Shown in pieces: positions 29,012 to 43,715 of a stretch of DNA of 64,000 nucleotides. This stretch comes from Chloroflexota bacterium (GTDB lineage Bacteria; Chloroflexota; Anaerolineae; Anaerolineales; Villigracilaceae), in NCBI GenBank assembly GCA_013388855.1, contig JACAEM010000001.1, forward strand, positions 1 through 64,000, given 5' to 3'. Below the pieces are notes generated by a model. It saw nothing but the letters and a program-made list of their open reading frames with translations, had not been told where the DNA came from and did no database searches. Each line of letters opens with the position of its first letter. The first letter of the stretch is position 1. The translations under genes were made by a program, and so were the position numbers.

Positions 29012-29064
29012 AGCTCCCTCGCTTTCTGGTGTTCAGGACTTTTAGATGCTGTGTTATGTGTCAT
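28999..29064 (-). CDS. Possible 21-codon leader ORF coupled to ssb
   Basis: ATG at 29062-29064 sits 7 bases after a strong AAAGGAG site. It reads 21 codons (MTHNTASKSPEHQKARELCL and a last His) to a TAA at 28999-29001, ending 13 bases inside ssb in another frame. Ribosomes that translate it would finish beside the ssb start. Whether it is translated is inference. Confidence 0.4.
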   Translation of the reverse strand: MTHNTASKSPEHQKARELCLH

Positions 29065-29132
29065 AAATAGTCTCCTTTTATCTAAAAGAACGGATTTGGT
29101 TGTTGCGAACAGGGTTATACTGTGCCCGTTGC

Positions 29133-29336: not shown

Positions 29337-29368
29337 TTTTTCTCCTTTTCTAAGTTGGTTGGAAAACA

Positions 29369-29398
29369 AGTTTAGCACAGATTTTCTAATACTGTCAA
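29369..29398 (-). promoter_or_regulatory. Promoter of the small gene at 29133
   Basis: On the minus strand TTGACA (29398-29393) and TAAACT (29374-29369) are 18 bases apart. It lies in the 80-base divergent spacer with panC. Confidence 0.65.
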
Positions 29399-29416
29399 CG
29401 ATAGGATATTTCGTAT

Positions 29417-30247
29417 ATGCAAAGAGTAATTACCCTGCCAGACCTCCGCTCTGCCCGCCTCTCCTTCTCAGGAACGGTTGGGCTCGTGCCCACGATGGGT
29501 TACCTGCATGAAGGACATCTCTCGCTCATCCGCCGTGCAAGAGAGGAATGCGACCACGTTTTCGTCTCCATCTTTGTCAACCCAACCCAGTTCGGACCGA
29601 AGGAGGACTTCGCCCGGTACCCGCGCGACCTCGAACGGGATTTCCGCCTGATCGAATCCTTCACCGACGTGGTCTGGACGCCTTCAGCCGAGGAAATGTA
29701 TCCACAAGGGTATCAGACTTGGGTGGAGGTGGAAGCGATGACCAAGCCGCTCGAAGGGGCAATGCGACCGGGTCACTTCCGGGGCGTGACGACGGTGGTT
29801 GCCAAACTGTTCAACGCCGTCCAGCCGCACAAGGCGTATTTCGGGCAGAAGGACGCCCAACAGGCGGCGGTCATCCGTCGGATGGTGCGGGATTTGAACT
29901 TCCCACTTGAGATCGTGGTCTGCCCGACGACACGCGAACTGGACGGGTTGGCGATGTCGAGCCGCAATGTGTACCTGGATTCCGAACAGCGCAAAGCTGC
30001 CACGGTGCTCTTTCGTTCGTTGAGCGCGGCGAAAGAGCTATACGAAGCAGGGGAGCGAAACGCGGAAAAAATTAGGGGAAAGATGAGGGATGTGCTGGCG
30101 GGCGAGCCGCTTGCTGAACCGCAATACGTTTCCTGTGCCGACTACGACACGCTTGAGGAACTGGATGAAATAAAAGGAAAAGCCCTGCTTTCCATGGCGG
30201 TCTTCATCGGCAAGACAAGGCTGATCGATAATTTTGTATTAGGATAG
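29417..30247 (+). CDS. panC: Pantothenate synthetase
   Basis: A 276-residue enzyme that joins beta-alanine and pantoate with ATP to make pantothenate, a coenzyme A precursor. Signatures: VPTMGYLHEGHLSLI (ATP-binding HxGH motif), SIFVNPTQFGPKEDF, GHFRGVTTVVAKLFN, YFGQKDAQQ and MSSRNVYL. The length is normal. The start has no clear ribosome binding site. No panB or panD is adjacent. Confidence 0.97.
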   Translation: MQRVITLPDLRSARLSFSGTVGLVPTMGYLHEGHLSLIRRAREECDHVFVSIFVNPTQFGPKEDFARYPRDLERDFRLIESFTDVVWTPSAEEMYPQGYQTWVEVEAMTKPLEGAMRPGHFRGVTTVVAKLFNAVQPHKAYFGQKDAQQAAVIRRMVRDLNFPLEIVVCPTTRELDGLAMSSRNVYLDSEQRKAATVLFRSLSAAKELYEAGERNAEKIRGKMRDVLAGEPLAEPQYVSCADYDTLEELDEIKGKALLSMAVFIGKTRLIDNFVLG

Positions 30248-30249
30248 AC

Positions 30250-30287
30250 CCCTCCCCCAAACCCGCGTTCTTGGAATGTGGGGAGGG
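30250..30287. terminator. GC-rich hairpin between panC and the beta-propeller lipoprotein gene
   Basis: CCCTCCCC (30250-30257) pairs with GGGGAGGG (30280-30287) across a 22-base loop between two convergent genes. There is no T-run, so termination by it is uncertain. Confidence 0.35.
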
Positions 30288-30307
30288 TGCCCAGCGGACC
30301 GGCGAGG

Positions 30308-31537
30308 TTATGGCCCCCATTTCATGTCTTGAGCGAAGGACGTCAACACCACCCCGGGACTGCCGTCGGTGTAAACAACCTCCGCCTGCCCGCCAAAATA
30401 GACTTCCAGGGTGGGGGCGAATGCAACAATGACAAAACTGCCATCTGGCGCCCAAAGGGCTTCATTCATCGCCTCAAAGGTATCCGGGAGCAGGATGGTG
30501 CGGTCAGTCACGCCATCGGGGGCGGAGCGAACAAGCTGCAGGGGGTTACGATTGGAAAAACCCTCCGGCGCGGCAACCTTTGCATGGAAATAGTACAACT
30601 GACCATCCGGGGCAAGAAACGGCTCGTCAGGAAGGTTATACATCCCGCCGCCGGCATCGCCGGGGAGAAGCGTTGTCACCGCGCCGGTGGACGAATCCAC
30701 CCGCCACATCCCGGAACTGAACATGCCCATGCTGGGGTTTGCCATATAAAAGGCTGAACCATCAGCCGTCCACTCCTCTTCGCCGCAGCAGATCAAGGCA
30801 TCTTGGCCGCCTGTCAGGCGCACCAGAGCTTTGCTGTCGGGATAATAGACCGCGGCAGAGGCGCCTTCGTAGTAAGCAAGCGTGAGAAGCAGTTTCTTTC
30901 CATCGGGGGAATATTTTTCAGGGAGGTACAATTCCTTCGGAATGAACATGCCACTCCCCAAGTCATCGAACTGGTTATCGAGCACGCGGTTGGACACACC
31001 GGTCTCCAGCGCGTAGAAATTCAACCCCTTATGACCGTAGGCAATGACCCTGCCATCCGGCGAGACAACGGGATTGGTGATATTGCTCAAAAATGGATTG
31101 TTTTCATCCACCGCGCCGCCGTCGACCAGCAGTTTTCGCCCGGAGCCGTCCTCGGCGACCCATAATAACTGGTTATTGACCACGTAAACCACACTTCCGT
31201 CAATGGGCGAGACGGCATAATCACCAACGTTGACCGGCTCGGATGTGACCTGTACCTGCGTCCCACCATCCTTTCCGATGCGGAATACTTGCATGAGACC
31301 GGTGGCGTCGTTGCCGAGAAAGTAGAGCGAATGCGGAAGCAGGGTGGGCGCTTCCGGTTCGGGGGTGGAGGTTGATTCCGTACCCGGAGCCGGGGTCAGC
31401 GCCTGTACAGTGGATGCGACGATGGTTGCCACCTGGTCTTCGGCGGGGGCAGGCGCCCCCCCGCCCGGGAGAACGCAAGCCGTTACGGCAAGCGCCAGGG
31501 TTAGCAAGGCAACAACGGGATAATAGCGTTTGTTCAT
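30308..31537 (-). CDS. Beta-propeller (TolB/WD40-like) lipoprotein
   Basis: A 409-residue predicted lipoprotein. The signal peptide ends in lipobox VTAC; a Pro/Ala/Glu linker follows. From about residue 70 onwards there are repeating blades of the WD40-like/TolB type (SLYFLGNDATGLMQVFRIGKDG, YAVSPIDGSVVYV, PVVSPDGRVIAYG, KYSPDGKKLLLTLA, WAPDGSFVIVAFA). I chose the second of two nearby ATGs because GAGGA lies 6 bases before it. It is probably a surface binding protein of unknown ligand. It is the last minus-strand gene beyond the terminator of the osmoadaptation operon. Confidence 0.82.
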   Translation of the reverse strand: MNKRYYPVVALLTLALAVTACVLPGGGAPAPAEDQVATIVASTVQALTPAPGTESTSTPEPEAPTLLPHSLYFLGNDATGLMQVFRIGKDGGTQVQVTSEPVNVGDYAVSPIDGSVVYVVNNQLLWVAEDGSGRKLLVDGGAVDENNPFLSNITNPVVSPDGRVIAYGHKGLNFYALETGVSNRVLDNQFDDLGSGMFIPKELYLPEKYSPDGKKLLLTLAYYEGASAAVYYPDSKALVRLTGGQDALICCGEEEWTADGSAFYMANPSMGMFSSGMWRVDSSTGAVTTLLPGDAGGGMYNLPDEPFLAPDGQLYYFHAKVAAPEGFSNRNPLQLVRSAPDGVTDRTILLPDTFEAMNEALWAPDGSFVIVAFAPTLEVYFGGQAEVVYTDGSPGVVLTSFAQDMKWGP

Positions 31538-31630
31538 AGTCATTCCTCGTAATTAGATTCAATCGTCCCGAAGGCTGAAAGCCATTGGAACTCCTATAAA
31601 CAGCCTTCGGAACATTCCAGGCAATGGCTT

Positions 31631-31672
31631 AAAAACATGGAGACACGAAGAGAGCGTTCTCGGTGTCTCCAT
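31631..31672 (-). terminator. Terminator of the nhaA to c-di-AMP-receptor operon
   Basis: On the minus strand ATGGAGACAC (from 31672) pairs with GTGTCTCCAT (ending 31637), followed by GTTTTT (31635-31631). It lies 45 bases after the stop of the last receptor-like gene and marks the end of the nine-gene unit. Confidence 0.85.
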
Positions 31673-31716
31673 TGGGTTGTCCTACTGGACTGATTTTGTG
31701 ACGAATTTGTTCCAGG

Positions 31717-31980
31717 CTAAACCTGCTCGAATCGCTCCACGGGGATGACGAACAGGGTGGCGCGTTTCTCCGTCCCGGTGGATGGTTTCAATTTACTGCG
31801 CACCAGATCGATGGCGCCATCCACGCGGTCATCGTCCACACCGAGGAGCAGGGTGACGAATCCGCTGCGGAGGAATCCGCCGGTGGAGGCGACACGCGTC
31901 ACGCGGTATTCGGCGGAAGTGAGCGCCTGGGTCAAGGCATCCGCTTCGTTATCTTTGATGATCATGATGATCATTTTCAT
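31717..31980 (-). CDS. Cyclic-di-AMP receptor-like PII-type protein (PstA/DarA family), short paralogue
   Basis: An 87-residue member of the CdAMP_rec (former DUF970) family, PII-like proteins known to bind cyclic-di-AMP in Firmicutes. It starts MKMIIMIIKDNEADAL, has the family core RVTRVASTGGFLRSG, and ends TLFVIPVERFEQV. The large loop of the family is shortened (only SKLKPSTGTEKRA between the last helix and strand), and the Asn that normally follows the TGGFL core by a few residues is replaced (GFVTLL). The ATG at 31978-31980 follows GAGGAG. It is paired with a second, longer paralogue directly upstream. Last gene of the operon. Confidence 0.85.
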   Translation of the reverse strand: MKMIIMIIKDNEADALTQALTSAEYRVTRVASTGGFLRSGFVTLLLGVDDDRVDGAIDLVRSKLKPSTGTEKRATLFVIPVERFEQV

Positions 31981-31994
31981 GAGGCACACTCCTC

Positions 31995-32333
31995 TTAGAT
32001 TTCTTCAAAGCGTTCGACGGGTAACGCAAAAACGGTCGCGCCGCCCACGGTAACGGGAACAGGCGCGGGCATGGGAAGAGGTGACCCCTCCAGCGGCAGG
32101 GTGAGATATTCGATGCGCTGCCGGCAGGATTCCTCCAGCGACCTGATCGCCTCGTCCTCCTTGCCTTCACGCAAACCAATCAACAACGTCGCGTTGCGGC
32201 GCCCTAAAAATCCGCCTGCGCTGGAGAGAAAGACAACCGGCAGTCCCAACGCTTCGAGTGCGCGAGTCGCCGTGTCGATGTCCTGCTCCTGCACAACGGC
32301 AAACAACAAACGATGGATGTCTTTTTCGCTCAT
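31995..32333 (-). CDS. Cyclic-di-AMP receptor-like PII-type protein, full-length paralogue
   Basis: A 112-residue CdAMP_rec family protein. It keeps the full architecture: FLSSAGGFLGRRNATLLIG core with the conserved Asn, a Pro-rich long loop (SPLPMPAPVPVTV) and the GGATVFALPVERFEEI end. The Thr of the core is Ser here. Known members bind cyclic-di-AMP as trimers and pass the signal to partners by loop movement. It lies 14 bases upstream of the shorter paralogue and 33 bases downstream of the permease gene, so it may regulate the permease or other operon products. Confidence 0.88.
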   Translation of the reverse strand: MSEKDIHRLLFAVVQEQDIDTATRALEALGLPVVFLSSAGGFLGRRNATLLIGLREGKEDEAIRSLEESCRQRIEYLTLPLEGSPLPMPAPVPVTVGGATVFALPVERFEEI

Positions 32334-32366
32334 ATCCGTCTGCTCACTTTCGATTCATCGGTACGG

Positions 32367-33653
32367 TCAAAAAGTTGAATATAGTATAGCGTATAAAATA
32401 CTCGCGATGGAACAGGTTGCCAGCATCACAGGGAGCCCGCGCTTGTTCCAGAGCTTGGATGTGATTGGATGACGGGTTCTTTCCGACAGCGTCACGACGA
32501 TGATGTTGGCAGTCGCTCCGATGATTGTCCCGCTTCCGCCGAAACCTGCGCCGAACGCCAGCGCCCACCACAGCGGATCGACCTCCATGCCGGACGCGCC
32601 GAGACCGCGTATCACCGGAATGAGCGCAATTGTAATCGGAACATTGTCCACCACGGCAGATAACGCCGCAACGATCCAGATAAGCCCCACGCCAAAGACA
32701 AGAGGCGGGACGCTGGAAGCCCGTTCCAGCAACCCGACAACTGATTCCAATACCCCGGCGGATTCCAACCCGCCGACCATCACGAAGAGCGAGGCGAAGA
32801 AGATCAGCACACTCCATTCAATGCGTTTGAACAGTTCATCGAGGTTCGGGCGCACCCAGACCAGCGCCACCGCCGCGGCGCTCAACGCGACCAGCGATGG
32901 GCTGACGTGCAATGCATGATGGACAAAGAAAAACAAAATAGCCCCCGCCAGCACGATCAAAATGCGACGCGCCACCAGTGGCTCGTTGAGCGTCTCGGCG
33001 GGATTCAAACGCATCACCGCCTTGACACTGCGCGGACGTTTGGATAATTCTTTTTTAAAGAGATGCAGGAGCAGGAATAACGCGCCTACCCATGATAATA
33101 ACACGATGGGCAGGGAATGGATGAGAAAATCCGTAAACGAAAATCCTGCCGCCGAACCGATCAACACGTTGGGCGGATCGCCAATCAGGGTGGCGACACC
33201 GACCGTATTGGAGAGCAGCGCCTCCGACATGAGAAACGGAAGCGCACTGATACCGATGATCTCGCAGATCAGGAGCGTGACCGGCGCGATGATCACCACC
33301 GTGGTGACGTTATCCAGGAACATCGAGAGGATGGTGGTGATGATTCCCAGCAGGACGAACAGACGCACAGGTTTGCCCCTGGAGGCGCGCGCCGCCAGCA
33401 CGGCAAGATATTGGAAGAACCCGGTCGGTTCGAGCATTGCGACCAGCATCATCATACCCAGCAGAAGCCCCAGCGTGTTGAAATCGATGGCATCCAGGGC
33501 GGCTTCCTCCGAATAAAAGTGCAGGACGCGTCCCACAATCACCATCAACGCCCCGCCTGCGATGGCCGTAATGGAACGGTGAAGTTTTTCGGAAAAGATG
33601 ATGATCAGACTTCCGAAAAAAATAACCGTGGCAAGGATGGCAGGCAGGGTCAT
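32367..33653 (-). CDS. ArsB/NhaD-type ion permease
   Basis: A 428-residue membrane protein of the ion-transporter superfamily (ArsB/NhaD/SLC13). It has about twelve hydrophobic segments; recognisable pieces are LGLLLGMMMLVAMLEPTGFF near residue 60, DNVTTVVIIAPVTLLI near 125, VATLIGDPPNVLIGSAAG near 165, and a second repeat with VVDNVPITIALIPVI and GGSGTIIGATANII. The repeat signatures NVTT and DNVP are the substrate-site motifs of Na+/H+ antiporters and anion exporters. The start (ATG at 33651-33653) overlaps the CBS gene stop by 4 bases. Context of nhaA and osmolyte genes suggests sodium or another ion as substrate; arsenite is less likely since a separate acr3 is present. Confidence 0.85.
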   Translation of the reverse strand: MTLPAILATVIFFGSLIIIFSEKLHRSITAIAGGALMVIVGRVLHFYSEEAALDAIDFNTLGLLLGMMMLVAMLEPTGFFQYLAVLAARASRGKPVRLFVLLGIITTILSMFLDNVTTVVIIAPVTLLICEIIGISALPFLMSEALLSNTVGVATLIGDPPNVLIGSAAGFSFTDFLIHSLPIVLLSWVGALFLLLHLFKKELSKRPRSVKAVMRLNPAETLNEPLVARRILIVLAGAILFFFVHHALHVSPSLVALSAAAVALVWVRPNLDELFKRIEWSVLIFFASLFVMVGGLESAGVLESVVGLLERASSVPPLVFGVGLIWIVAALSAVVDNVPITIALIPVIRGLGASGMEVDPLWWALAFGAGFGGSGTIIGATANIIVVTLSERTRHPITSKLWNKRGLPVMLATCSIASILYAILYSTF

Positions 33654-34105
33654 GTCTTTTCCCAACTCGAAAGGACTGCCACACCGATGTCCACACGTGA
33701 GGCGACGCCGATCAACTTTCCATCCTTTGAAACGACGAGCATGTCGTGCAGGTTGTGTTGCAGCATCAGCGCATAGGCTCGCAGAAGTCCGCAATCCTCC
33801 TCCACCGCGATGGGCGGCTTCATCAGGGATTTGACGGATTTATCCAGCGTCCGGGCGGAGGGACGAGTCGTCTCGACCGCGCCGAAATCGTGAACAAAGT
33901 CCACATCCGCAACAAGACTGACGAAATCGGGCAATTCGAGGGTTAAGAGGTCGCGAATCCCGATCACACCGACGGGTTTGCCGTTTTTTTCCACGACCGG
34001 CAATAACCCAATATGTTTATTGACGATGACCGCTGCAGCATCGCGGATGGTGGCAGTCACGGGGATGGAAACGACATGTTTCTTCATACAGGAGGATACG
34101 GTCAT
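33650..34105 (-). CDS. Tandem CBS-domain protein
   Basis: A 151-residue protein consisting of two CBS domains (residues about 5-60: SSCMKKHVVSIPVTATIRDAAAVI region, and about 88-148: SLMKPPIAVEEDCGLLRAYALML region). CBS pairs bind adenosine nucleotides; in some osmolyte transporters they bind cyclic-di-AMP. The ATG at 34103-34105 follows GGAGACCTT. Its stop overlaps the start of the permease gene (ATGA), so both proteins are made together and it is probably the regulatory subunit of that permease. Confidence 0.9.
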   Translation of the reverse strand: MTVSSCMKKHVVSIPVTATIRDAAAVIVNKHIGLLPVVEKNGKPVGVIGIRDLLTLELPDFVSLVADVDFVHDFGAVETTRPSARTLDKSVKSLMKPPIAVEEDCGLLRAYALMLQHNLHDMLVVSKDGKLIGVASRVDIGVAVLSSWEKT

Positions 34106-34209
34106 AAGGTCTCCAAATGGAAGCGTGTCTTTTTGTAAAAATTTTATACCAAAAATGGGTGGCGAGATCACTTTCCTTTTTCGGGACGGTCCATGTTGGT
34201 AATTGCCGT

Positions 34210-36024
34210 CTACTTCTTCACCAGTGTTCGCAAATGCTCCTGATATTCTGGCAGGTCGATCATCGGCGGACGCTCGCGTTCAGCGATCTCCTCGACCTCC
34301 AGAAAATACCCCTTATTGTTATGGCGGATCAACTTCATCGAGCGGTTCACATCCTCCAGCACGGCGCGCCCGAAGCGCTTCTCCAGTTTATGGATGACCG
34401 TCTGGATGATGGCAAAAGACATCTTGCTCAACGCTTCCAGATGCTGGTTGTGATGGATCCGTTCCAGCAGATCCACCTGGGCAATGGCGCCCAGCCCATA
34501 TCGTTCGTAAATATCGATCAGCAAGCCCGTCTCCACGCCATAACCGGAATAGAACGTCGCCTGCTCCAACGCTGCGCGCCTGCCCCCATATTCCCCTGAA
34601 AGCGGCTGGACCACACCGGAAAGTTCCGGGTAGAACAGGTTCAGCAACGGGCGCGCCGTCAACTCCGTGACGCGCCCGCCGCCGCCCGCCTGCAATTTTC
34701 CATCCACCTTTAAGGGGCGGCGATAATATCCCTTCACGAATTGGACTTGCGGATTCATCAACAAGGGACCGATAATCCCGTATACAAAGCGCGGATGAAT
34801 GTTGACGATGTCCGTATCAATCCAGATGATCAGGTCGCCGCGCGTCACCAGCAAACTTTTCCACAACGCTTCACCCTTACCGTGCCGCGCTCCCAGCCGC
34901 TCGAGCAAATGTTGATGGATGTACACCGGCACCCCCTCCTTCTTTGCGATCTCGCGCGTCCGGTCGGTTGAATTGGAATCGATCAACACGATCTCATCCA
35001 GCAACGGCACCTTTTGCATCAGCTCCTTTTTCATCATGCGAAGTACCCTGCCCACCGTTTCCTCCTCGTTCAGAGCGGGCAGGGCCAGGCTGATACTCAG
35101 CCCCTGCCCCCGTTTTGACTCGACCAGTTCCCGCAGATGGGCAAATTCGTCGGCGGAATAGGTGTTTTCTGCAAACCATTTATCCACCAGGATCGAGATC
35201 GCCTGCACACCGGCGCTTTCATCATAGACCGCCTGTGGCAGGGGACGTCCGCTTTTGACTGCGATCACCGCGCCCGGCGCCTCCCGCAGGATTCGGTCGG
35301 CAAACGGTCCCAAGGAGGCGGAACTGTTGACAGGCTGGGAGGTCGTTCCTAAAATAATGACCTCCGCCTTCTTCGCGTTTTCCATCATCAACCCAGCCGC
35401 GTCATCCGTGACGATAAACTGTTTCTGCACCTCCGGCATCTGCTTCAGGACGCGGTCCAGCCCTTTGAACGGAGCGTCACTTCCGGCTTCAGGATCATCT
35501 GTCCGTCGGATGTGAAGCGCCGTGACTCCCTTCGGATGTAATCCCAGCCCCACGCGCAACGCCAGTTCCGCATGTGGACCGCCTCGCACCGGGACCAGAA
35601 CCTGATTCGGTTTGCTGGGAATTTTCCCCCGCACCAGCGCGACATCACAGGGCGGGTTGGTCAGCACATCCGCCGCAGTGACGCGCAATGCCTTGAGGTG
35701 AGATTCAAATTCGAGACAGAGCAGATCCGGCTGTTCATCCTGGATGAACTTTGCCAGTTCCTTCCATGGGTTATACGAGACGATGATCTGCGTCTTGCCT
35801 GTGATGTGTTTGTCCTTGCCGTAGATTCGGAACAGTCGGCGCAGGGCGCGCGCGCCAACCGCCCCCATGCTCAGCGATTGATCAGGTGGCACCACCACGA
35901 CACCTACGAGGATGATCTCAGCGTCCAGATGGCGCGCCGCTTCCATGGCGTGAAAGCCCGGTCCTTCGTGAACAAAGGGAACGAGGACCGTATGAATGGG
36001 CACATATCCGGAATGTCTTTGCAT
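34210..36024 (-). CDS. gpgS: Glucosyl-3-phosphoglycerate synthase fused to two universal stress domains
   Basis: A 604-residue fusion. Residues about 1-135 and 145-275 are two universal stress protein (USP)-like domains, the second with ending VIILGTTSQP and GAVIAVKS. Residues about 315-604 are a GT81/GT2-like glycosyltransferase: SLALPALNEEETVGRVL, the metal-binding WIDTDIVNIHPRF, and the GpgS signature QPLSGEYGGRRAAL. GpgS moves glucose from a nucleotide sugar to 3-phosphoglycerate, the first step to glucosylglycerate, a compatible solute. USP domains bind ATP or, in KdpD, cyclic-di-AMP, so they may control activity. No glucosyl-3-phosphoglycerate phosphatase is in the window. The GT4 genes lie 22 bases upstream. 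Confidence 0.88.
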   Translation of the reverse strand: MQRHSGYVPIHTVLVPFVHEGPGFHAMEAARHLDAEIILVGVVVVPPDQSLSMGAVGARALRRLFRIYGKDKHITGKTQIIVSYNPWKELAKFIQDEQPDLLCLEFESHLKALRVTAADVLTNPPCDVALVRGKIPSKPNQVLVPVRGGPHAELALRVGLGLHPKGVTALHIRRTDDPEAGSDAPFKGLDRVLKQMPEVQKQFIVTDDAAGLMMENAKKAEVIILGTTSQPVNSSASLGPFADRILREAPGAVIAVKSGRPLPQAVYDESAGVQAISILVDKWFAENTYSADEFAHLRELVESKRGQGLSISLALPALNEEETVGRVLRMMKKELMQKVPLLDEIVLIDSNSTDRTREIAKKEGVPVYIHQHLLERLGARHGKGEALWKSLLVTRGDLIIWIDTDIVNIHPRFVYGIIGPLLMNPQVQFVKGYYRRPLKVDGKLQAGGGGRVTELTARPLLNLFYPELSGVVQPLSGEYGGRRAALEQATFYSGYGVETGLLIDIYERYGLGAIAQVDLLERIHHNQHLEALSKMSFAIIQTVIHKLEKRFGRAVLEDVNRSMKLIRHNNKGYFLEVEEIAERERPPMIDLPEYQEHLRTLVKK

Positions 36025-36046
36025 TTCAATTTCCTTTCTTGCATGA

Positions 36047-37261
36047 TCATTTCAAGAGGGGCTTCACCTGCTGACGATAGATCGCCTCCCACCGAAACGA
36101 GGAACGCGCGCGCATGGCGAGTCGTGAAGGCAGGGAGGTATGAAAATGTTCTGCAATCAATGTTGCGACGCGGGCAGGGTTTTCGTCGGGCGAATAAAAT
36201 GTCGCATCATCCATGCCCAGTCTTCTCAGCGGGGGGATATCCGCACAGAAGGCGGGCAGGCGACTGAACGCGGCTTCGATCAATGGGATGCCAAATCCCT
36301 CCTCGCGGCTGGGGAAGAATAACGCATCTGCCACGCGGAAAAAATCCGCAATGACCTCATCGGGCAGGAATCCGTCATGCAGTTCAGCCAGAAAATGGAC
36401 GGAACGTTCCACCCCCAATTGTCTCCGAAGGTTTGTGAGCATTTCGAAATAGGTGATATTGCTGGCGTTATGCGGTCCCAGTGGACCCGTCACCACCAGT
36501 GCGGCTTGAGGAAAATCCCTTTTCAATTCTGCAACGGCCTTCAATGCAAGTTCGATATTCTTGCGCGGTGTCACACGGACGGGCAATAACAGGATCGGTG
36601 CGGCATCCAGTAATTTTGTCTTCTCAAGCAGGGATTGTGTCAGCGGTTCAAGTTTGTAGAACCTGTTCAAATCCACCCCGTTGGGAACGACATGAATGGT
36701 GTCGGGGGACAGCCTCATCAAATCCGCCAGTTCGTCGCGGCGCAACTCAGAGACAACCACATGAGTTGTGTTCATCCAATCGGTGCGAAGTAAATCCCAG
36801 GGATAACCGTCGTGTAGTTCGGGCAGGTAGCGCGGCGTGGTCCATGCAAGGTCGTGATGCCAGAGGATCAGACGCGGCATTTTTCGGGATCGATGAAGTC
36901 GATGAAGTGCGGCGGTCAATGCAAGATTTTTATTCAACGAACAGACGTTGTGGGCAATCAACACATCCGCGTCTGAAAGCGCGGTCAGCAATTCGTTGAC
37001 AAGCTCTTCGCGCAGGGATTCAAAATCTGCGCTCACCCTTCCAGAATCCAATTGTTCCTTGACATGGATCACCCGCTCATGGCGGGAATCCGCCAGCGGT
37101 ATGGTTGTGAGCGGGATTTGTCCGTTCATTGCCTTGCCGCGCGCCGCGATCAGCCGCACGGAGTGCCCATCTTCCGTCATCAGCCGCGCGTGATGAGCAA
37201 TGACACTTTCCACACCGCCGACGATGGGAGGAACGGAATAATGCAGGAGGGCAATGTTCAT
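36047..37261 (-). CDS. GT4-family glycosyltransferase (first of two)
   Basis: A 404-residue GT-B fold glycosyltransferase. The N-terminal glycine-rich loop is SVPPIVGGVESVI; the C-terminal nucleotide-sugar domain has LLPVRVTPRKNIELALKAV and the EREE-like segment FPSREEGFGIPLIEA. The ATG at 37259-37261 overlaps the stop of the upstream GT4 gene (ATGA), so the two are translationally coupled. With gpgS directly downstream, it may add a sugar to glucosyl-3-phosphoglycerate or to glucosylglycerate; the acceptor is inferred from context only. Confidence 0.88.
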   Translation of the reverse strand: MNIALLHYSVPPIVGGVESVIAHHARLMTEDGHSVRLIAARGKAMNGQIPLTTIPLADSRHERVIHVKEQLDSGRVSADFESLREELVNELLTALSDADVLIAHNVCSLNKNLALTAALHRLHRSRKMPRLILWHHDLAWTTPRYLPELHDGYPWDLLRTDWMNTTHVVVSELRRDELADLMRLSPDTIHVVPNGVDLNRFYKLEPLTQSLLEKTKLLDAAPILLLPVRVTPRKNIELALKAVAELKRDFPQAALVVTGPLGPHNASNITYFEMLTNLRRQLGVERSVHFLAELHDGFLPDEVIADFFRVADALFFPSREEGFGIPLIEAAFSRLPAFCADIPPLRRLGMDDATFYSPDENPARVATLIAEHFHTSLPSRLAMRARSSFRWEAIYRQQVKPLLK

Positions 37262-38601
37262 ACCTGATATCCCAGGCAATCGGCCACGATGGATTCCAGC
37301 CGCCGTTCGAGAACGGTATAGGAGAAATACCGTCTGGCAAGTTGATAATTCATCTCTGTCCATTCCTGCGTCTGTTCGGGGTGTTTCAACGCATGGCGCA
37401 CTGCTTCCAATGTGCTGGTGCTGATGAAACCATCGAACCAGACGGTATGAAATCCCTTTGGCTTGATATCCACTTCATAAATGGAGTAATTGTTGACCAG
37501 GATCAGGCGGCGGTAATACACGGCTTCGAGAAAGGCGTTGCCAAATCCCTCGATGCTGGAGGGGTACGTCACCAGGTCTGCAAATGGGTAGACATCGCCA
37601 AGCGTGTAGATTTTTCTCCCATCCCTGGTCATGCCGCGGGCGTCCTGCACCTGATCGGACTCGAAGCGGACCGTCACATTCAACAGACTGGCATATTCGC
37701 GGACACGGTGCTCGTAGTCCGTGCCTTCGTCGCCGGAGGCGTGCGAGATGATGAGCTTGGCAGGCAGGTCGAGGCGACGCATTAACTCAATGGCATGTTC
37801 GATGCCTTTGCGTTGAATGACGCGCGTCGGCTGCAGAAAAAAATATTCACCGGGTTCAATTCCAAGGTCCGGACGGACCGTTTCTGTGTAGGAGTCCGGG
37901 GCGGGCGGCAGGGAGTCGAAGTCCATCACGTTGGGGATGACGCGCGCGGTCACACCATAACGTGAGGCGATCTGTTGTGCCTGGATTGTGTTGATAACCA
38001 CATGCCGGATCGAAGGCAGGGTTGGCGGGAATGCCGCAGCGAGATAATCGCCCACACAGTTGACCTGAAAGCGCTGGCGTTCCCAGTGAAAGTCATGATG
38101 ATGTGCGATGGTGGGATAACCCGTCTCGGCAATAAACTCAGTGAGCGCCAGCCCCAGTGGAAGGTTGAGCGGGATTGTCACCGCGTTTTCGATGATGAGA
38201 ATTTCCAACTCAAAACGATGGGCAAATTTGTACAGTTCTTCCTTGAAGTATTCTTTTAGTTCGTTGACACGGCGGGTCATCGCGGGCGGGCGGACATAGA
38301 TGGAAAAGAAATCCTTTTGCAGTTTCGTCATTTCCGGATGTGCGGCGCGTGCTTCCTTTGTGACTGTCCAACTGCCGGAATATGCCTGCTGGTTCAATTT
38401 ATCGATCTCGGGATGGCGATAGAACGCCTCCGGCACGACGTGGGAGTGATCGCCGTTTCGGTCGCATTCTCCCGCGAAATAGAAACATTTGTGTCCGAGC
38501 CGTTCGAGCACAGTCGCCCATTTGGCCGTTTCGAGAGAAACACCGTCTGTGCCTGCAAAGCGGGTGGAAATGAAACCGATGTGGCGGGATGATGGCGTCA
38601 T
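37258..38601 (-). CDS. GT4-family glycosyltransferase (second)
   Basis: A 447-residue GT4 enzyme. N-terminal ISTRFAGTDGVSLETAKWA; C-terminal LQPTRVIQRKGIEHAIELM and YPSSIEGFGNAFLEAVYYRR. The arrangement with gpgS recalls the mannosylglucosylglycerate pathway, in which a GT4 mannosyltransferase (MggA) extends glucosyl-3-phosphoglycerate. Whether this is MggA cannot be decided here. It is coupled to the other GT4 gene. A dispersed repeat and about 217 bases separate it from the phosphorylase gene upstream, so an internal promoter is possible. Confidence 0.87.
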   Translation of the reverse strand: MTPSSRHIGFISTRFAGTDGVSLETAKWATVLERLGHKCFYFAGECDRNGDHSHVVPEAFYRHPEIDKLNQQAYSGSWTVTKEARAAHPEMTKLQKDFFSIYVRPPAMTRRVNELKEYFKEELYKFAHRFELEILIIENAVTIPLNLPLGLALTEFIAETGYPTIAHHHDFHWERQRFQVNCVGDYLAAAFPPTLPSIRHVVINTIQAQQIASRYGVTARVIPNVMDFDSLPPAPDSYTETVRPDLGIEPGEYFFLQPTRVIQRKGIEHAIELMRRLDLPAKLIISHASGDEGTDYEHRVREYASLLNVTVRFESDQVQDARGMTRDGRKIYTLGDVYPFADLVTYPSSIEGFGNAFLEAVYYRRLILVNNYSIYEVDIKPKGFHTVWFDGFISTSTLEAVRHALKHPEQTQEWTEMNYQLARRYFSYTVLERRLESIVADCLGYQV

Positions 38602-38731
38602 GAAGAACCTCTATTCTGTTTAGCCGAATTCGGGATAAGCCTTTGAATCGTCTCGATGGTTGTGGTTGAACGATTTCGAGAGCGAAACCCGACCTTCGAG
38701 ACACTTATCGCGAATCGGTGTCTGTTTATAT

Positions 38732-38815
38732 GTCGTTGCGAAGCAATCTCTTGTTCATGGAATGCTGCCATTGCAGGAGATTGGTTCGTCAAGTTTCGCG
38801 TTCCTTGCAGCGACA
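38732..38815. repeat. Dispersed GTCGTTGCGAAG palindromic repeat
   Basis: The left end reads GTCGTTGCGAAGCAATCTC and the right end is its imperfect inverted copy (GGAGATTGGTTCG ... TTGCAGCGAC). The 84-base element lies between the phosphorylase and GT4 genes of the osmoadaptation unit. Copies at 8345-8402 and 58293-58375 share the ends. Confidence 0.6.
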
Positions 38816-38818
38816 AGG

Positions 38819-40501
38819 TTAACTTAATTTGAGCCATTGGACTTGATATGACTCAAGTGTGATGTTTGAAATCTGAATATTTTGATTCTCGAACAGGTCA
38901 AATGCCGACTCGTACTTTGTAAGAAACGATATACGCGTTTGACCGATATTGTGCAAACATAACACCCGGGATTGCCCATCGGGAGAAACGCGTTCGATGG
39001 CAAAAACGCATGGATGCAAATCCAGGACCTTTTGTGTGCCATGTGGATGAAATGCGGAAGCATTGCTTCTGGCTTTCAGCAATTGACGATAACGCGTGAA
39101 AACCCTGAAACGCAAACTATTTTTGTCCGCGAGTTGATTTTGCACTTCATCAAACTGACATTTCTGGCGGTTGATCGTGCGATTGTGACCGGTCAACTTC
39201 ACTCCCTCTGGCCAGCCGCGCGAGCTGAAGAGGCTGTGGAAGTAAATCCCTGGCACGCCAACGAGCGAGAGCATGATGGCTTGCGCGGCAAGGAAGCGAT
39301 CGATTTGCAGATCAAGCGGTTCATTCCCATTTGGGCTGGATAAGGCGTCAAAGTAATTGATATTCATTTCGTATGGACTCTGTGTCCCATCCGCATTGTG
39401 CTTGTAGGAGATCAAACCGCCGTGATCAAGGGTCGTTTCGATGAGGGAATCGATGTCGGCGGCGGATAAAATCCCTCGGGCGGGATTTAGCCCGATCCCG
39501 TCATGAGAGGCGAGAAAGTTGAAGAAGGTTGTTTTGTCCGAGGGAAGGGTCAATTTTCGCGCCCAGTCCGACAATATACGCGCATCGCCGGTGTGGAAAG
39601 CATGAAGCGTGAGGGGAGGCAATGCAAAGTTGTAGACAAGTTGTGCTTCGTTTGTTCCGTCTCCAAAATAGGAAATGTTGTCAGCGTGTGGCACATTGGT
39701 CTCGGTGATGAGATGCACATGCGGCGCGACTTCGTTCAACGCGGCGCGAAGGAATTGGATGATGCAGTGCGTTTGTGGGAGGTGAATACAGGCTGTGCCG
39801 ATTTCCTTCCATAGATAGGCGATGGCATCGAGGCGGATGAAGTCTGCGCCGCGCTCAACGTAGAGCAGGAGGATGTCGAGAATTTCGAGCAGGACATCGG
39901 GATTTTTGAAGTTGAGGTCGATCTGGTCGGCGCTGAAGGTCGTCCAGACTTTTTTCTCACCTGATGGAGTTTGAAACGGCGTGAGCAGAGGCAGGGCGCG
40001 TGGACGCACGACCTGCGACAAGTCCGGCTCGCCCTCGACGACGATGAAATAGTCACGGTAGCGCGGGTCGTCCTGCAAAAACTTTTGGAACCATGCGCTC
40101 CGAGACGAGATGTGGTTGATGACACCGTCGAACATCAAACGGAAGTTTTGCATGGACGTGACATCATCCCATTCGCCGAGCGCGGGGTCGATGCGACGAT
40201 GATCCACCACAGAGAAGCCGTCGTCGGAGGTCCATGGGTAGAAGGGCAGGATGTGAATTCCGCTGACGACATCGGTCAGATGGGCATCGCAGAATTTCTT
40301 GAGCGTTTGCAGGGGCTTTTCGTTCGGAGATTGGACCTGGTCGCCGTAGGTGATCAGGATCGAGTCGCGTTCGCTGAGTCCGCCGTCCCGTGGCATGATG
40401 CGAGGACGGTAGTCTGCGAAGAGCCGTTCCACGCGCGCAAGCAGCAGAGTCGCCTGCTCGTCTCCATAGAGAAAGGTGAGGTGAGGTCGAAGATCGATCA
40501 T
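38819..40501 (-). CDS. GH13_18 glucosyl phosphorylase, probably glucosylglycerate phosphorylase
   Basis: A 560-residue enzyme of glycoside hydrolase subfamily GH13_18 (sucrose phosphorylase-like). The (beta/alpha)8 barrel shows HILPFYPWTSDDGFSVVDH, the catalytic nucleophile Asp in FIRLDAIAYLWKE, the acid/base Glu in LITETNVPH and the stabilising Asp in FLASHDGIGL. The subfamily includes phosphorylases for sucrose, glucosylglycerol and glucosylglycerate (such as E. coli YcjM). The neighbouring gpgS makes glucosylglycerate the best guess: it would release glucose 1-phosphate and glycerate. It lies 11 bases downstream of nhaA. Confidence 0.82.
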   Translation of the reverse strand: MIDLRPHLTFLYGDEQATLLLARVERLFADYRPRIMPRDGGLSERDSILITYGDQVQSPNEKPLQTLKKFCDAHLTDVVSGIHILPFYPWTSDDGFSVVDHRRIDPALGEWDDVTSMQNFRLMFDGVINHISSRSAWFQKFLQDDPRYRDYFIVVEGEPDLSQVVRPRALPLLTPFQTPSGEKKVWTTFSADQIDLNFKNPDVLLEILDILLLYVERGADFIRLDAIAYLWKEIGTACIHLPQTHCIIQFLRAALNEVAPHVHLITETNVPHADNISYFGDGTNEAQLVYNFALPPLTLHAFHTGDARILSDWARKLTLPSDKTTFFNFLASHDGIGLNPARGILSAADIDSLIETTLDHGGLISYKHNADGTQSPYEMNINYFDALSSPNGNEPLDLQIDRFLAAQAIMLSLVGVPGIYFHSLFSSRGWPEGVKLTGHNRTINRQKCQFDEVQNQLADKNSLRFRVFTRYRQLLKARSNASAFHPHGTQKVLDLHPCVFAIERVSPDGQSRVLCLHNIGQTRISFLTKYESAFDLFENQNIQISNITLESYQVQWLKLS

Positions 40502-40512
40502 CGCAACTCATC

Positions 40513-41697
40513 TCAATCCGTCTGGTTGACCGGGGGCGGCGAAGAGTTCCGGTTCAGGATCAGGAAACCGGTAATGCCCGCCAAAAGTGATCCCAACAGA
40601 ATGGCGATCTTGGATCCCTGAATGAGGTTGGGATCGCTGAATGCCAAGAGTGTGATGAAAATGGACATGGTAAAGCCAATGCCGCCCAGAAAACTCGCCC
40701 CAAGGATGTGCTTCCAGGATACATCATCGGAGAGTTTTGAAATACCCGCCTTGACTGCCGCAAAACTGAATAGAAAAATGCCCAGCGGTTTTCCCAGAAG
40801 CAGACCGGCAAGAATGCCCAGACTATTGGGAGTGCCCAATCCGTCCATCCATTGCCCATCGAGCACAATCCCGGTGTTTGCCAGCGCGAAGATTGGCATG
40901 ATGAGAAAAGCCACAGGTTTGTGCAGGATGTGCTGCAATCTATAGGAGGGGGATGTTTCGCTCCCATCTCCAAACGGGATCGCAAAAGCCAGCAGGACGC
41001 CCGTCAGTGTGGCGTGAACTCCCGACTGGAGCATGAAGTACCACATAAAGATTCCCGGAATGAAGTAGAAGACCAGCCGCTTCACTCCCAGCCGGTTCAG
41101 AATCAGCAACCCGGAAAACATCCCCAGCGCCAGCATCAGGTTTACGAACGAGAAATCGCCCACGTAGAAAATGGCAATGATGATGATTGCTCCCAGGTCG
41201 TCGATGATGGCAAGCGCGGTGAGGAAGACCTTCAATGAGACGGGGACCTTATTACCCAGTAACGCCAGCACACCCAGCGCAAAGGCGATATCGGTTGCCA
41301 TGGGAATGCCGATCCCGCGCTGGGTTGCAGTGCCCGCGTTGAACAGGAAGTGGAACAGCGCAGGCATGCCCATCCCGCCAATGGCGGCCAGGATGGGCAG
41401 GGACGCGTTCTTTAGATCGGATAACTCTCCCTGATACAGTTCCCGCTCGATCTCCAGACCGATCAACAAAAAGAAGATCGCCATCAGCCCGTCATTGATC
41501 CAGTGTTCAATGCTCTGCTTGAGGAAGATGGTCTCCGTTTCAATCCCGATCTTGAGATGCCAGAATTCCAGGAAACGATGTCCTAGCGATGAGTTGGTAA
41601 CACCGATGGCGACGATAGTGCACAAGATCAGGACGATTCCCGATGACTGCTCGCTGTCGAAAAATTCCTTGAAGAGTTTGGTCAGCTTTGTTCTCAT
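40513..41697 (-). CDS. nhaA: Na+/H+ antiporter NhaA
   Basis: A 394-residue antiporter that expels sodium in exchange for protons at the membrane. About twelve membrane segments; the paired Asp residues of the ion site are in LAIIDDLGAIIIIAIFY, and the MATDIAFALGVLALLG and GKPLGIFLFSF segments are family signatures. The ATG at 41695-41697 follows AAAGGAGTG; an upstream Met in frame lacks a ribosome binding site. It is the first gene of the unit that continues into osmolyte and cyclic-di-AMP-related genes. Confidence 0.96.
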   Translation of the reverse strand: MRTKLTKLFKEFFDSEQSSGIVLILCTIVAIGVTNSSLGHRFLEFWHLKIGIETETIFLKQSIEHWINDGLMAIFFLLIGLEIERELYQGELSDLKNASLPILAAIGGMGMPALFHFLFNAGTATQRGIGIPMATDIAFALGVLALLGNKVPVSLKVFLTALAIIDDLGAIIIIAIFYVGDFSFVNLMLALGMFSGLLILNRLGVKRLVFYFIPGIFMWYFMLQSGVHATLTGVLLAFAIPFGDGSETSPSYRLQHILHKPVAFLIMPIFALANTGIVLDGQWMDGLGTPNSLGILAGLLLGKPLGIFLFSFAAVKAGISKLSDDVSWKHILGASFLGGIGFTMSIFITLLAFSDPNLIQGSKIAILLGSLLAGITGFLILNRNSSPPPVNQTD

Positions 41698-41810
41698 TGT
41701 TTCACTCCTTTCTTTGGCTTCCCCCCAAAGGTTGCTACCTTTGACCAGAATTTTTATACCATAAAAACGCAATTTAAAAATTAAATCGCGAATAAGAGTG
41801 AAACAGGTAT

Positions 41811-41842
41811 AAAAAGGGCGGAGAATATTCTCCGCCCAAAAA
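41811..41842. terminator. Terminator of the arsenic operon
   Basis: A perfect 22-base palindrome (11-bp arms, GGGCGGAGAAT) at 41816-41837 is flanked by AAAAA and AAAAATTT, so on the minus strand a T-run follows the stem. It separates acr3 from nhaA. Confidence 0.9.
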
Positions 41843-41848
41843 TTTAAT

Positions 41849-42976
41849 CTATTTGATCAATTCCTCGTATGGCGGACAAGCCTCCTGTGCCGCAGCAAGA
41901 ATGGCAGGAGATGCCCCCACGTTGCCGTTGTACATTTTCTTTTGCAACCAGAACGCTACGTTGACCAGCCCGATCATCACCGGCACCTCCACCAGCGGAC
42001 CGATCACTGCCGCGAATGCCGAGCCGCTGTTGATACCAAAGACTGCCACCGCCACGGCAATCGCCAACTCAAAATTGTTGCTGGCGGCAGTAAAGGAAAG
42101 CGTGGTCGTCTTGGAGTAATCCGCGCCGAGGCGGTGCCCCATCCAGAACGAGACGAGGAACATACCTACGAAATAGATCAAAAGCGGGATGGCGATCCGC
42201 ACCACGTCGCCGGGAATCTGTACGATGAGATTTCCCTTGAGCGAGAACATGACCATGATGGTGAAGAGTAAGGCAATCAACGTCAGCGGGCTGATGCGCG
42301 GAACGAACCGGGTGTAATACCATTCCCTGCTTTTGAATTTTAACATGACAAAACGCGTCACGAAACCAGCCAGGAAGGGAATGCCCAGGTAAATGAACAC
42401 ACTCTGCGCGATCTCACCAATCGTGATTTCCACCACCGAGCCGGTCAACCCAAACAGTGGCGGCAGAACAGTAATAAACATCCAGGCATACACGCTGTAG
42501 AACAGAACTTGAAAGATACTATTAAATGCTACCAACCCCGCAGCATATTCCGTGTCACCATGCGCCAGTTCATTCCAAACGATGACCATTGCAATGCAAC
42601 GCGCCAGACCAATCATGATCAACCCCGCCATGTACTCGGGATAACCGCGTAAAAAGATGATTGCCAGTGCGAACATCAGGACGGGTCCGATCACCCAGTT
42701 CTGGATGAGCGAAAGCGTCAGGATCTTTTTGTTGCGGAAAACCTCCCCCAATTCCTCATACTTAACCTTGGTAAACGGCGGATACATCATCAAAATAAGA
42801 CCAATTGCAATGGGAATGTTGGTCGTTCCCACCGATACCGTATCGTTGAATTGCTTCACCCCGTCTGGAAAGAGAAACCCGATTAGAACGCCCACCGCCA
42901 TCGCAAGGAAAATCCACAATGTCAGGTAGCGGTCAAGAAAAGACAATTGTTTGGATACACTGGTTTGTTGGGTCAT
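41849..42976 (-). CDS. acr3: Arsenite efflux transporter, ACR3 family
   Basis: A 375-residue transporter with about ten membrane segments that exports arsenite using the proton gradient. ACR3 landmarks: [16 protein letters not shown] with the essential Cys near residue 125, and [19 protein letters not shown] with the conserved Glu near residue 290. The ATG at 42974-42976 follows AGGAG. It is the last gene of the arsR-arsP-trx-trx-arsC-acr3 operon and would pump out the arsenite that ArsC makes. Confidence 0.95.
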
Positions 42977-42989
42977 GGAGTTCTCCTGA

Positions 42990-43385
42990 TTAAAATTTCG
43001 ATAGCAATTCAGTCATCACGCGCTCAATGTCATCGCGCACCGAGCGAAAATCATTCATGTTATCAGTCACTGCAGGATCGGGAAAACTGTGATGAATTTT
43101 CTTTCCTTTTCCCAACCAGACGGGACATTCTTCAGCCGCCGAATCGCACACCGTAACGACAAGGTCGAAATCCACATCCCGAAATTCGTCCGCCCGCTTC
43201 GAACGACCCGTATGCTGGATACCAATTTCTGCAAGCGCTTCCAACGCCTTGGGGTGGACATAGCCCGCAGGTTTCGTCCCTGCGCTCACCGCCTGCCATT
43301 CCCCGCCCAATCTGGCATTGACAATCGCCTCTGCCATTTGCGAACGGCAGGAATTACCGGTACATAAGAACAAAACTCGTCTCAT
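42990..43385 (-). CDS. arsC: Arsenate reductase, thioredoxin-coupled (LMW phosphatase fold)
   Basis: A 131-residue enzyme reducing arsenate to arsenite. The CX5R loop is CTGNSCRSQ at residues 8-14, and the two redox Cys are in [14 protein letters not shown]. This triple-cysteine pattern is the thioredoxin-coupled ArsC class (Staphylococcus pI258 type). The ATG at 43383-43385 has a GAGGAG site. Two thioredoxin-like genes lie directly upstream in the operon and may supply its electrons. Confidence 0.95.
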
Positions 43386-43463
43386 AATATGAATCTCCTC
43401 GATTTTTTTGTCCATTCTATCGAGTAGACCAATGGTTAATTGTTATCGTCTTGTTAAGAATGA

Positions 43464-43715
43464 TTATGCGGTTTGCAGTGCATCTGCCAGCCAGCTGGTC
43501 ACTTCGGCGGGAGTGGGAATGCGCCCCGCGCAGACCAGTTTTTCGTTGACGACCAGCCCGGGCGTGGATAGGATGTTGTAGGCCATGATGTCGTTGTAAT
43601 CGGTCACTTTGATGATTTCGGCTTCCAAAGCCATTTCATCTACAACCTTGCGCGCAATCTGTTCCACGCGTTTGCAATTGGCGCAGCCAGAACCGAGGAT
43701 TTTGATGGTGAGCAT
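43464..43715 (-). CDS. Thioredoxin-like small protein (GCANC)
   Basis: An 83-residue thioredoxin-fold protein of the redox-active disulfide protein 2 type. The dithiol motif is [13 protein letters not shown] at residues 8-16 and the cis-Pro strand is [11 protein letters not shown]. Such proteins accompany ArsP-type permeases. It has an AAGGAG site. It probably delivers electrons or binds metalloids for the neighbouring arsC or permease. Confidence 0.88.

Follow-up and report, generated by a model that had tools for sequence, protein, structure and literature searches.

A 64,000-nucleotide stretch of an Anaerolineales genome (Chloroflexota bacterium, GenBank assembly GCA_013388855.1, contig JACAEM010000001.1, positions 1 to 64,000; hereafter the window) encodes on its minus strand, at 31717-41697, a run of nine genes that ends in dar1 and dar2, two genes for CdAMP_rec (PF06153) proteins related to the cyclic di-AMP (c-di-AMP) receptors PstA and DarA. 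At roughly even odds, we read this run as the long form of a modular Anaerolineales osmoadaptation operon in which Dar1 and Dar2 would together form a heteromeric c-di-AMP receptor that controls antiporters. The reading builds on the gene content of the run and its recurrence in relatives, on the complementary retention of ligand-site residues in the two Dar proteins, on an in-frame fusion of dar1 to an antiporter gene, and on a diadenylate cyclase gene in the same genome. A preliminary description of the window had likewise proposed an osmoadaptation module. This is right in outline but is unsupported for the USP and CBS proteins that it took in, and the description overlooked the two points that carry most weight: the fusion to an antiporter and the splitting of the ligand site.

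Complementary half-sites in Dar1 and Dar2

Both Dar proteins belong to the CdAMP_rec family, scoring 78.9 bits (dar2) and 71 bits (dar1) against PF06153 (gathering cut-off 27 bits); against the DarA equivalog model NF058593 (cut-off 140 bits) they reached 75.4 and 75.2 bits, respectively. PstA structures were matched by dar1, with phmmer and Foldseek, and by dar2. Single-chain AlphaFold models had predicted local distance difference test (pLDDT) values of 88.7 for dar2 and 72.6 for dar1 and returned PstA/DarA as their top PDB matches, the fit of the dar1 model being loose (root-mean-square deviation 13-15 for the three best-ranked chains). On the basis of these models both proteins are predicted to have a PII-like fold. 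The source genome (4.03 Mb, 46 contigs, 99% complete) gave no CdAMP_rec match besides dar1 and dar2 at E<=0.001.

In Staphylococcus aureus PstA, c-di-AMP is held between monomers: monomer A provides R26, T28, G47 and Q108, and monomer B provides F36, L37, N41 and F99. Among the variants covered in the cited sections of that report, T28A, N41A and GGFL-to-AAAA bound c-di-AMP least (PMC4316997). The window dar1 has P26, V28 and E108 and keeps GGFL, N41 and F99. The window dar2 keeps R26, T28, G47, Q108 and GGFL, and F41 replaces N41. Neither has a complete T28/GGFL/N41 site alone. This division recurs in relatives. Across 89 dar1 sequences, R26 was present in 2, T28 in 32 and Q108 in 15, and N41 was present in 88 and F36 in 89. 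Across 93 dar2 sequences, R26 was present in 88, T28 in 93 and Q108 in 89, and N41 in 18 and F36 in 70. When each dar1 was paired with any dar2 of the same locus, a mixed site with T28 from dar2 and GGFL/N41 from dar1 was complete in 88 of 89 pairs; the same residues were complete within dar1 alone in 32/89 and within dar2 alone in 2/89. Requiring R26 as well left 87/89 mixed sites, 1/89 for dar1 alone and 2/89 for dar2 alone. As judged from these alignments, Dar1 appears to keep mainly the monomer-B half of the PstA site and Dar2 the monomer-A half.

As a control we inspected the 30 class homologues that scored highest, in which T28, GGFL and N41 occurred together in every case (30/30). We also considered a split receptor as the general outcome of CdAMP_rec duplication and rejected it on the evidence of pairs and two-domain proteins of other families: in the pairs of G140, G101, G121 and G008 the short protein has a complete site, and eight two-domain CdAMP_rec proteins have T28 and N41 in both halves, with GGFL varying in some. 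Chains with two CdAMP_rec domains were seen in other families of the class at loci L122-L126 and L133-L135. In two loci with two-domain CdAMP_rec proteins (G064 and G131), an ArsB/CitMHS-type permease gene lies nearby in divergent orientation.

The preliminary description had counted the CdAMP_rec proteins among its putative c-di-AMP-binding domains. Each protein alone lacks part of the site, so a single split receptor is the better reading of the two. A different explanation is that the ligand of the pair is, as with other PII-like proteins, another nucleotide (such as AMP, ATP or cAMP) and that the half-sites mark a changed specificity. The incomplete site of either window protein fits this idea, as does a score of 75 of the 140 bits demanded by the DarA equivalog. 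The source genome does contain one diadenylate cyclase match, a 289-residue open reading frame (ORF) that we read from its sequence as probably CdaA-type, with a YbbR/CdaR-like next gene; such a cyclase is near-universal in the class (145 of 150 genomes), so its presence proves little here. The losses are nonetheless complementary, with B residues persisting in dar1 and A residues in dar2 in 88/89 pairs, which would be unexpected had the c-di-AMP site been abandoned. We consider a change of ligand unlikely.

Antiporter genes beside and within dar1

CdAMP_rec genes were found in 97 of 100 genomes of the source genome's own family of uncultured Anaerolineales, and in all 64 of its high-quality genomes. 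As a rule a genome has two, a long copy and a short copy that lacks the B'-loop. We mapped 86 of the 97 (all but G130, G161, G167, G171, G176, G177, G182, G204, G207, G234 and G236). Genes in the maps were named by BLAST to reference proteins, with few scanned against Pfam, and in some maps the ORF filter removed genuine genes that overlap their neighbours, namely GT4b in G111 and, in the window, CBS and GT4b. The first 5' partner of dar1 was taken within 460 nucleotides (nt) for the 87-entry counts and the tree, within 450 nt for the named loci and within 260 nt in an earlier count.

An antiporter was fused to dar1 or was the first labelled gene upstream in 43 of the 87 entries, spanning 14 of 23 genera. 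By type, the first partner was an MGH1-like hydrolase in 31 entries, a CPA1 fusion in 19, CPA2 in 13, the permease in 6, a separate CPA1 gene in 3 (G150, G197 and G175, the G175 gene being itself a fusion), NhaA in 2 (G214 and G211, with nhaA directly 5' of dar1), USP-GpgS in 1 and other genes in 2; no gene was labelled in 10. The 260-nt limit gave MGH1 30, CPA2 10, permease 5 and other 16. In the named loci, which are the best 80 of 128 and overlap with the 86 mapped genomes, the 84 dar1 entries had MGH1 (24), CPA2 (16), permease (12), CPA1 (10, of which L259 and L295 are themselves fusions), CPA1 fusion (5), NhaA (2), USP-GpgS (6) or other genes (9) as first partner. Some loci combine several transporters. 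A CBS-permease pair and CPA2 precede dar1 in G237, and in G232 dar1-dar2 come after a series made up of a CPA1-dar fusion, CBS-permease and CPA2. A candidate nhaA before the permease of G237 proved to be a 48-residue remnant and was rejected. Entries without a labelled partner include neighbours such as Fic-domain genes (G227, G221) and a cytosine methylase gene (G216).

The in-frame CPA1-dar1 fusion was identified by BLAST in 19 entries from 10 genera as ORFs of 630-686 residues that end in the dar1 domain; in 14 of these genomes a PF06153 match lies within an open frame of 633-702 residues. In G148, a single 686-residue ORF contains PF00999 at residues 39-412 (252.7 bits) and PF06153 at residues 583-685 (71.3 bits), and its antiporter part scores 321.3 bits against a cut-off of 279.6 for TIGR00831, the CPA1 Na+/H+ antiporter model. 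Among ORFs longer than 500 residues with a dar1 match, an antiporter was the sole fusion partner seen.

On a dar1 tree (87 rows, 112 columns, 43 of 83 inner branches open) the partner label required 17 changes over 75 labelled entries, gains and losses not being told apart. The well-supported branches force at least three changes for the permease, at least three for CPA2 and at least two for the fusion; the two fusion changes could be a pair of gains or a gain plus a loss. In BLAST comparisons of the CPA1, CPA2, NhaA, permease and CaCA reference proteins, no match between classes reached E<=1e-3, although CPA1 and CPA2 both fall within Pfam PF00999. In the source genome PF00999 has a single match in 4.03 Mb, a rough yardstick for antiporter adjacency in place of a formal background rate. 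This match lies at G000:C44:30322-31413 (L216), within a 684-residue open frame.

In 9 of the 86 loci, a protein of about 120 residues is encoded between CPA2 and dar1 with an overlap of a few bases with both (for example L136:9389-9751 and L144:8216-8581). One of three scanned gave a sub-threshold P-II match (21.2/25 bits), and the protein is possibly a third PII-like subunit that accompanies CPA2. In 30 short loci from other parts of the class (about 1.5 kb on each side), none of the reference antiporters was labelled around the DarA-like genes.

The longer block recurs as well. Both searches that the preliminary description proposed and that could be run, one for the block in related genomes and one for a diadenylate cyclase in the same genome, came out in its favour: the order GT4b, USP-GpgS, (CaCA), CBS, permease, dar1 is also found in G235 and G152, and the same GT4b-to-dar1 block in L237, L268, L275, L285, L286 and L290. 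USP-GpgS occurs in 12 of the 86 fetched dar stretches. The glucosylglycerate linkage is a subset of the wider pattern, in which antiporters and the MGH1-like hydrolase are commoner partners of dar1.

The frequency of this hydrolase makes it a strong rival target and raises the possibility that the dar pair controls the enzymes of glycoside osmolyte metabolism (MGH1-like hydrolase, GpgS, phosphorylase) and that the antiporters are co-regulated passengers of a salt-stress operon. The hydrolase is the commonest immediate 5' neighbour in both the 87 entries and the 80 named loci, and it also lies 5' of many CPA1-dar1 fusions. In G225, dar1 directly follows USP-GpgS, and in another family of the class (f42) the USP-GpgS run contains a dar gene beside which no reference antiporter was labelled, the references at that point being nhaA and the permease. 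The hydrolase itself carries PF22422 in two scanned proteins, shows weak PDB similarity to trehalase and reached no NCBIfam cut-off. Against enzymes as the target stand the 19 entries in which dar1 is fused to an antiporter, and to nothing else among ORFs longer than 500 residues, and a dar1 tree on which different families come to occupy the antiporter position. We regard enzyme control with passenger antiporters as rather unlikely.

The gene run and its osmolyte genes

The nine minus-strand genes all have open frames with no internal stops, and the run proved real at the borders that the preliminary description gave it, as did its two larger gaps. The features are:
40513-41697, minus strand: nhaA, Na+/H+ antiporter of 394 residues, ATG start (TIGR00773)
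38819-40501, minus strand: GH13_18 phosphorylase of the glucosylglycerate phosphorylase (GGaP) type (PDB matches, TETN and the PYE loop Glu)
37258-38601, minus strand: GT4a, glycosyltransferase related to mannosylglucosylglycerate synthase (MggS; NF041101, below cut-off)
36047-37261, minus strand: GT4b, TIGR04047-like GT4 glycosyltransferase (TIGR04047, below cut-off)
34210-36024, minus strand: USP-GpgS fusion, Usp at residues 25-132 and GpgS at residues 280-591 (Pfam Usp and GT2, NF010496)
33650-34105, minus strand: protein with two CBS domains (PF00571)
32367-33653, minus strand: permease of the ion-transporter superfamily, CitMHS/ArsB-like (PF03600)
31995-32333, minus strand: dar1, long CdAMP_rec (PII-like) protein with B'-loop (PF06153)
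31717-31980, minus strand: dar2, short CdAMP_rec protein without B'-loop, 87 residues, ATG at 31980 (PF06153)
31632-31672, minus strand: intrinsic terminator 3' of dar2 (folding, followed by ATGTTTTT)
41816-41837, minus strand: arsenic-operon terminator, the 5' border (consensus scan and folding)

With refined gene starts, the gaps from nhaA to dar2 are, in order, 11, 217, -4, 22, 104, -4, 33 and 14 nt. The two ATGA-type overlaps join the GT4b start to the GT4a stop and the CBS gene to the permease start. An AGAGGAG ribosome-binding site was seen at dar2. Both terminators of the earlier account were borne out. The 3' hairpin folds at -19.6 kcal/mol (z -5.3) and was shown by folding, the consensus terminator scan not picking it up; the upstream border was detected by the consensus scan and has a folding z of -6.4. 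The repeat that had been placed in the 38602-38818 gap was not found: there is no direct or inverted repeat of at least 10 bases in 38560-38860. Promoter-like matches in a scan of the locus were no more frequent than chance (6 found, 8.5 expected). Between the arsenic-operon terminator and nhaA, an AT-rich hairpin with a T tail at 41768-41790 (minus strand) may serve as an additional terminator or as a leader structure. Beyond the other end of the run, the gene at 30308-31543 (minus strand) encodes a putative lipoprotein in which a PD40/WD40-like repeat scores 29.4 bits; a homologue of this protein occurs in 30 of the 86 fetched dar stretches, mostly directly after dar2.

The assignments of nhaA and gpgS held up against curated models: nhaA scores 433.6 bits against the TIGR00773 cut-off of 254, and the GpgS part of the fusion 377.5 bits against the NF010496 cut-off of 262. 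The naming of the GH13_18 enzyme is also sustained. Its best PDB matches are sucrose and glucosylglycerol phosphorylases, its 194.2 bits lie below the 334.4-bit cut-off of the sucrose phosphorylase equivalog TIGR03852, and it carries ITETN and SPYE, the PYE loop Glu being read by eye from an unaligned loop A. According to the passage concerned, (T/S)ETN together with a Glu in loop A tells glucosylglycerate phosphorylase from sucrose phosphorylase (PMC7178133).

Of the 150 class genomes, 46 gave a USP-GpgS match, the source genome included, and 40 of the 46 were mapped (all but G028, G052, G078, G102, G109 and G113). As read from the maps, GT4b adjoins USP-GpgS in 29 of the 40 loci, with a dar gene intervening in three. 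In f42, a CdAMP_rec gene lies between USP-GpgS and GT4b in G082, G106 and G126 (L058, L056 and L060). The receptors of these three genomes keep R26, T28, GGFL and N41, and f42 gives a separate, independent connection between c-di-AMP receptors and the genes of glucosylglycerate metabolism.

GpgS starts methylglucose lipopolysaccharide synthesis in mycobacteria. The osmolyte itself is predicted from the gene set, and we consider it quite unlikely that the product of GpgS and the two GT4 enzymes is a larger glycan or a glycolipid and not a free compatible solute. Such a product would accord with the scores of GT4a (204.6 bits) and GT4b (77.5 bits) against the MggS model NF041101 (cut-off 640 bits), and with GT4b being nearest to the mycobacterial MSMEG_0565 family (91.8 bits against a TIGR04047 cut-off of 259.85). 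It would accord, too, with the absence of a dedicated phosphatase among the window cluster genes. Histidine-phosphatase genes do occur in the clusters of G089, G152 and G240, and the source genome has five weak histidine-phosphatase matches, the query being a piece of the G152 gene, in frame and positioned by estimate; the candidacy of this protein for the missing phosphatase step is weak because the G089 protein reaches the cut-off of an alpha-ribazole phosphatase model (164.6 against 162.9 bits) rather than that of a GpgP model. A free solute is favored by the GGaP-type phosphorylase encoded in the same run, whose substrate would be free glucosylglycerate, and by the adjoining antiporter genes. 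In the USP-GpgS cluster of G089, moreover, an MGH1/GH63-type enzyme scores on the glucosylglycerate hydrolase model, at 99.7 bits below its cut-off of 550.

The permease matches PF03600 with 281.6 bits and falls below the cut-offs of the ArsB models NF011980 (102.6/457) and TIGR00935 (84.7/415), of the NhaD model TIGR00775 (46.5/577.1) and of the DASS and MamN models. Its proximity to ORFs at 41849-43415, named by reading of the sequence as ACR3-type and ArsC-like, might suggest an arsenite pump belonging to the neighboring ars operon within a chance collection of genes, and the 102.6 bits against an ArsB model point the same way. We find this very improbable, since the ArsB scores lie below their cut-offs, a terminator separates the two operons, and homologues of the permease or of the CBS-permease pair stand before dar1 in many genomes and with CBS elsewhere. 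The latter arrangement, a two-gene CBS-permease cassette with no labelled dar or GpgS gene, was seen in G137, G133, G100, G042 and G005 (L127, L129-L132), with a CPA2 antiporter gene directly downstream in G042. A CaCA Na+/Ca2+ exchanger gene lies 5' of CBS-permease in G152, G235 and G230, and the G152 protein reaches the TIGR00367 cut-off.

The proposed receptor and its relation to known systems

In the mechanism we propose, the dar1-dar2 pair would be the regulatory core of the operon, with Dar1 and Dar2 forming a mixed PII-like trimer. Because each protein has kept mainly one PstA half-site, c-di-AMP would be bound only at the interface at which Dar2 takes the place of monomer A and Dar1 that of monomer B. 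A ring of three that includes both proteins has exactly one such interface, which would limit each trimer to one ligand. The ligand-bound complex would reposition the large B'-loop of Dar1 and so change the activity of the co-encoded cation/proton antiporter, a control that we infer to be direct, as we infer its direction. In the window, the target would be the CBS-associated ArsB/CitMHS-type permease, whose cation substrate is presumed, and possibly NhaA; in relatives it would be a CPA2, CPA1 or NhaA antiporter, which in the 19 fusion entries is CPA1 joined to Dar1. From the same transcript or transcripts, GpgS, GT4a and GT4b would make glucosylglycerate or a mannosylated form of it, and the GGaP-type phosphorylase would recover glucosylglycerate. 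Toxic cations would be pumped out and a compatible solute would replace them.

Several findings weigh against this mechanism. The dar1-dar2 pairs were drawn from related genomes and are not independent, and the division of the site is not strict, with T28 kept in 32/89 dar1 and N41 in 18/93 dar2 sequences. R26 and Q108 are weak markers because they were present in 18/30 and 0/30 of the control homologues, and these controls, as the best Pfam scorers, favor complete sites, many of their genomes holding further copies. Both domains were confirmed by Pfam in one fused protein, that of G148; the other 18 fusions (630-669 residues) rest on BLAST, with PF06153 lying inside open frames of 633-672 residues in 13 of them. 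The first partner of dar1 is an MGH1-like hydrolase in 31/87 entries and no labelled gene in 10/87, and the near-universal cyclase is uninformative for the linkage. A dar gene lies within 9 kb of USP-GpgS in 7 of 40 mapped loci from two families (the window, G027, G061 and G111; G082, G106 and G126 of f42). A ydaO-type c-di-AMP riboswitch search of 29000-43500 against Rfam gave no match, with four weak unrelated ones up to E 1.

The proposed role of the B'-loop meets a further difficulty. In PstA this loop is variable and is thought to hold the effector-binding part, as stated in the sections of the report cited here (PMC4316997). An alignment of 12 Dar1 proteins whose partners differ shows it to be near-invariant (dar1 residues 75-99, window 32037-32111), which makes it ill-suited to direct docking on each of several unrelated antiporters. 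Two explanations offer themselves: a docking feature present in all the antiporters, or contact of the loop with Dar2 or some other shared protein.

Of the three kinds of putative c-di-AMP-binding domain named in the preliminary description, those of the USP and CBS proteins gained no support. The KdpD-type USP motif for c-di-AMP, SXS-X20-FTAXY, and the USP ATP motif were taken from the relevant part of PMC4686210. The strict form of the KdpD motif is absent from the window USP-GpgS, and the relaxed form and the ATP motif were found in 0 of 40 USP-GpgS orthologues, the window copy among them; we therefore rejected the USP domain as a c-di-AMP sensor. The CBS protein (PF00571, 80.6 bits in two stretches) has plant CBSX proteins as its best PDB relatives. 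No DarB or OpuCA name appears among its 22 PDB matches at E<=1e-5, and it scores 19.6 bits against 326.6 for proV.

A more far-reaching version of the proposal is that Dar1 and Dar2 are an obligate heteromer that takes up one messenger per mixed trimer and serves as an exchangeable subunit for unrelated antiporters and for glycoside osmolyte metabolism, which would make antiporters a target of PstA/DarA-type proteins. We hold this tentatively, as possible rather than probable. DarA was described as without known function in 2021 (PMC7857571), and the targets of PstA are called unknown in the cited part of a December 2025 paper (PMC12802241). A natural receptor-antiporter fusion together with repeated replacement of the neighbor would be a direct candidate answer to the question of these targets. 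Later work reportedly links DarA to osmotic and potassium balance in Bacillus subtilis. Half-sites that complement each other would imply an unusual receptor in which each trimer binds a single messenger, and the CPA1-dar1 fusions, such as that of L273 (JABARH010000040.1), are ready-made constructs for testing. In the open-access PMC titles and abstract starts that were listed, a PII-like receptor-antiporter fusion, a half-site pair and their union with glucosylglycerate genes are undescribed, closed-access papers and domain-architecture databases lying outside that search.

SbtB-SbtA is a known pairing of a PII-family protein with a transporter that it controls, and neither a fusion nor a split receptor is known from that system or from GlnK-AmtB. 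Both differ from the present case in their ligands and their transporters. GlnK-AmtB is alike in that a PII-family protein controls a transporter (PMC12435418). The glucosylglycerate pathway of the Meiothermus silvanus type shares GpgS and a GH13_18 phosphorylase with (T/S)ETN (PMC7178133), whereas here GpgS is fused to USP, two GT4 genes are added, the run has no phosphatase, and c-di-AMP receptor and antiporter genes are attached. KhtTU of Bacillus and CpeAB of Streptomyces are alike in that a c-di-AMP-binding regulatory subunit is encoded with a CPA-type antiporter; in the account cited, c-di-AMP control of a K+/H+ antiporter is known for KhtTU, and antiport by CpeAB is only likely (PMC10117811). 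Their receptor is an RCK_C domain, whereas the one proposed here is PII-like, and RCK_C (TrkA_C) had no match in the nine window proteins at E<=0.001. PstA and DarA of the Firmicutes share with Dar1 and Dar2 the PII-like fold, the GGFL T'-loop and the site residues, which here fall partly to dar1 and partly to dar2. PstA assembles as a homotrimer and accommodates three c-di-AMP molecules (PMC12435418), whereas the Anaerolineales system comprises two co-encoded paralogues with complementary half-sites that are linked or fused to antiporters.

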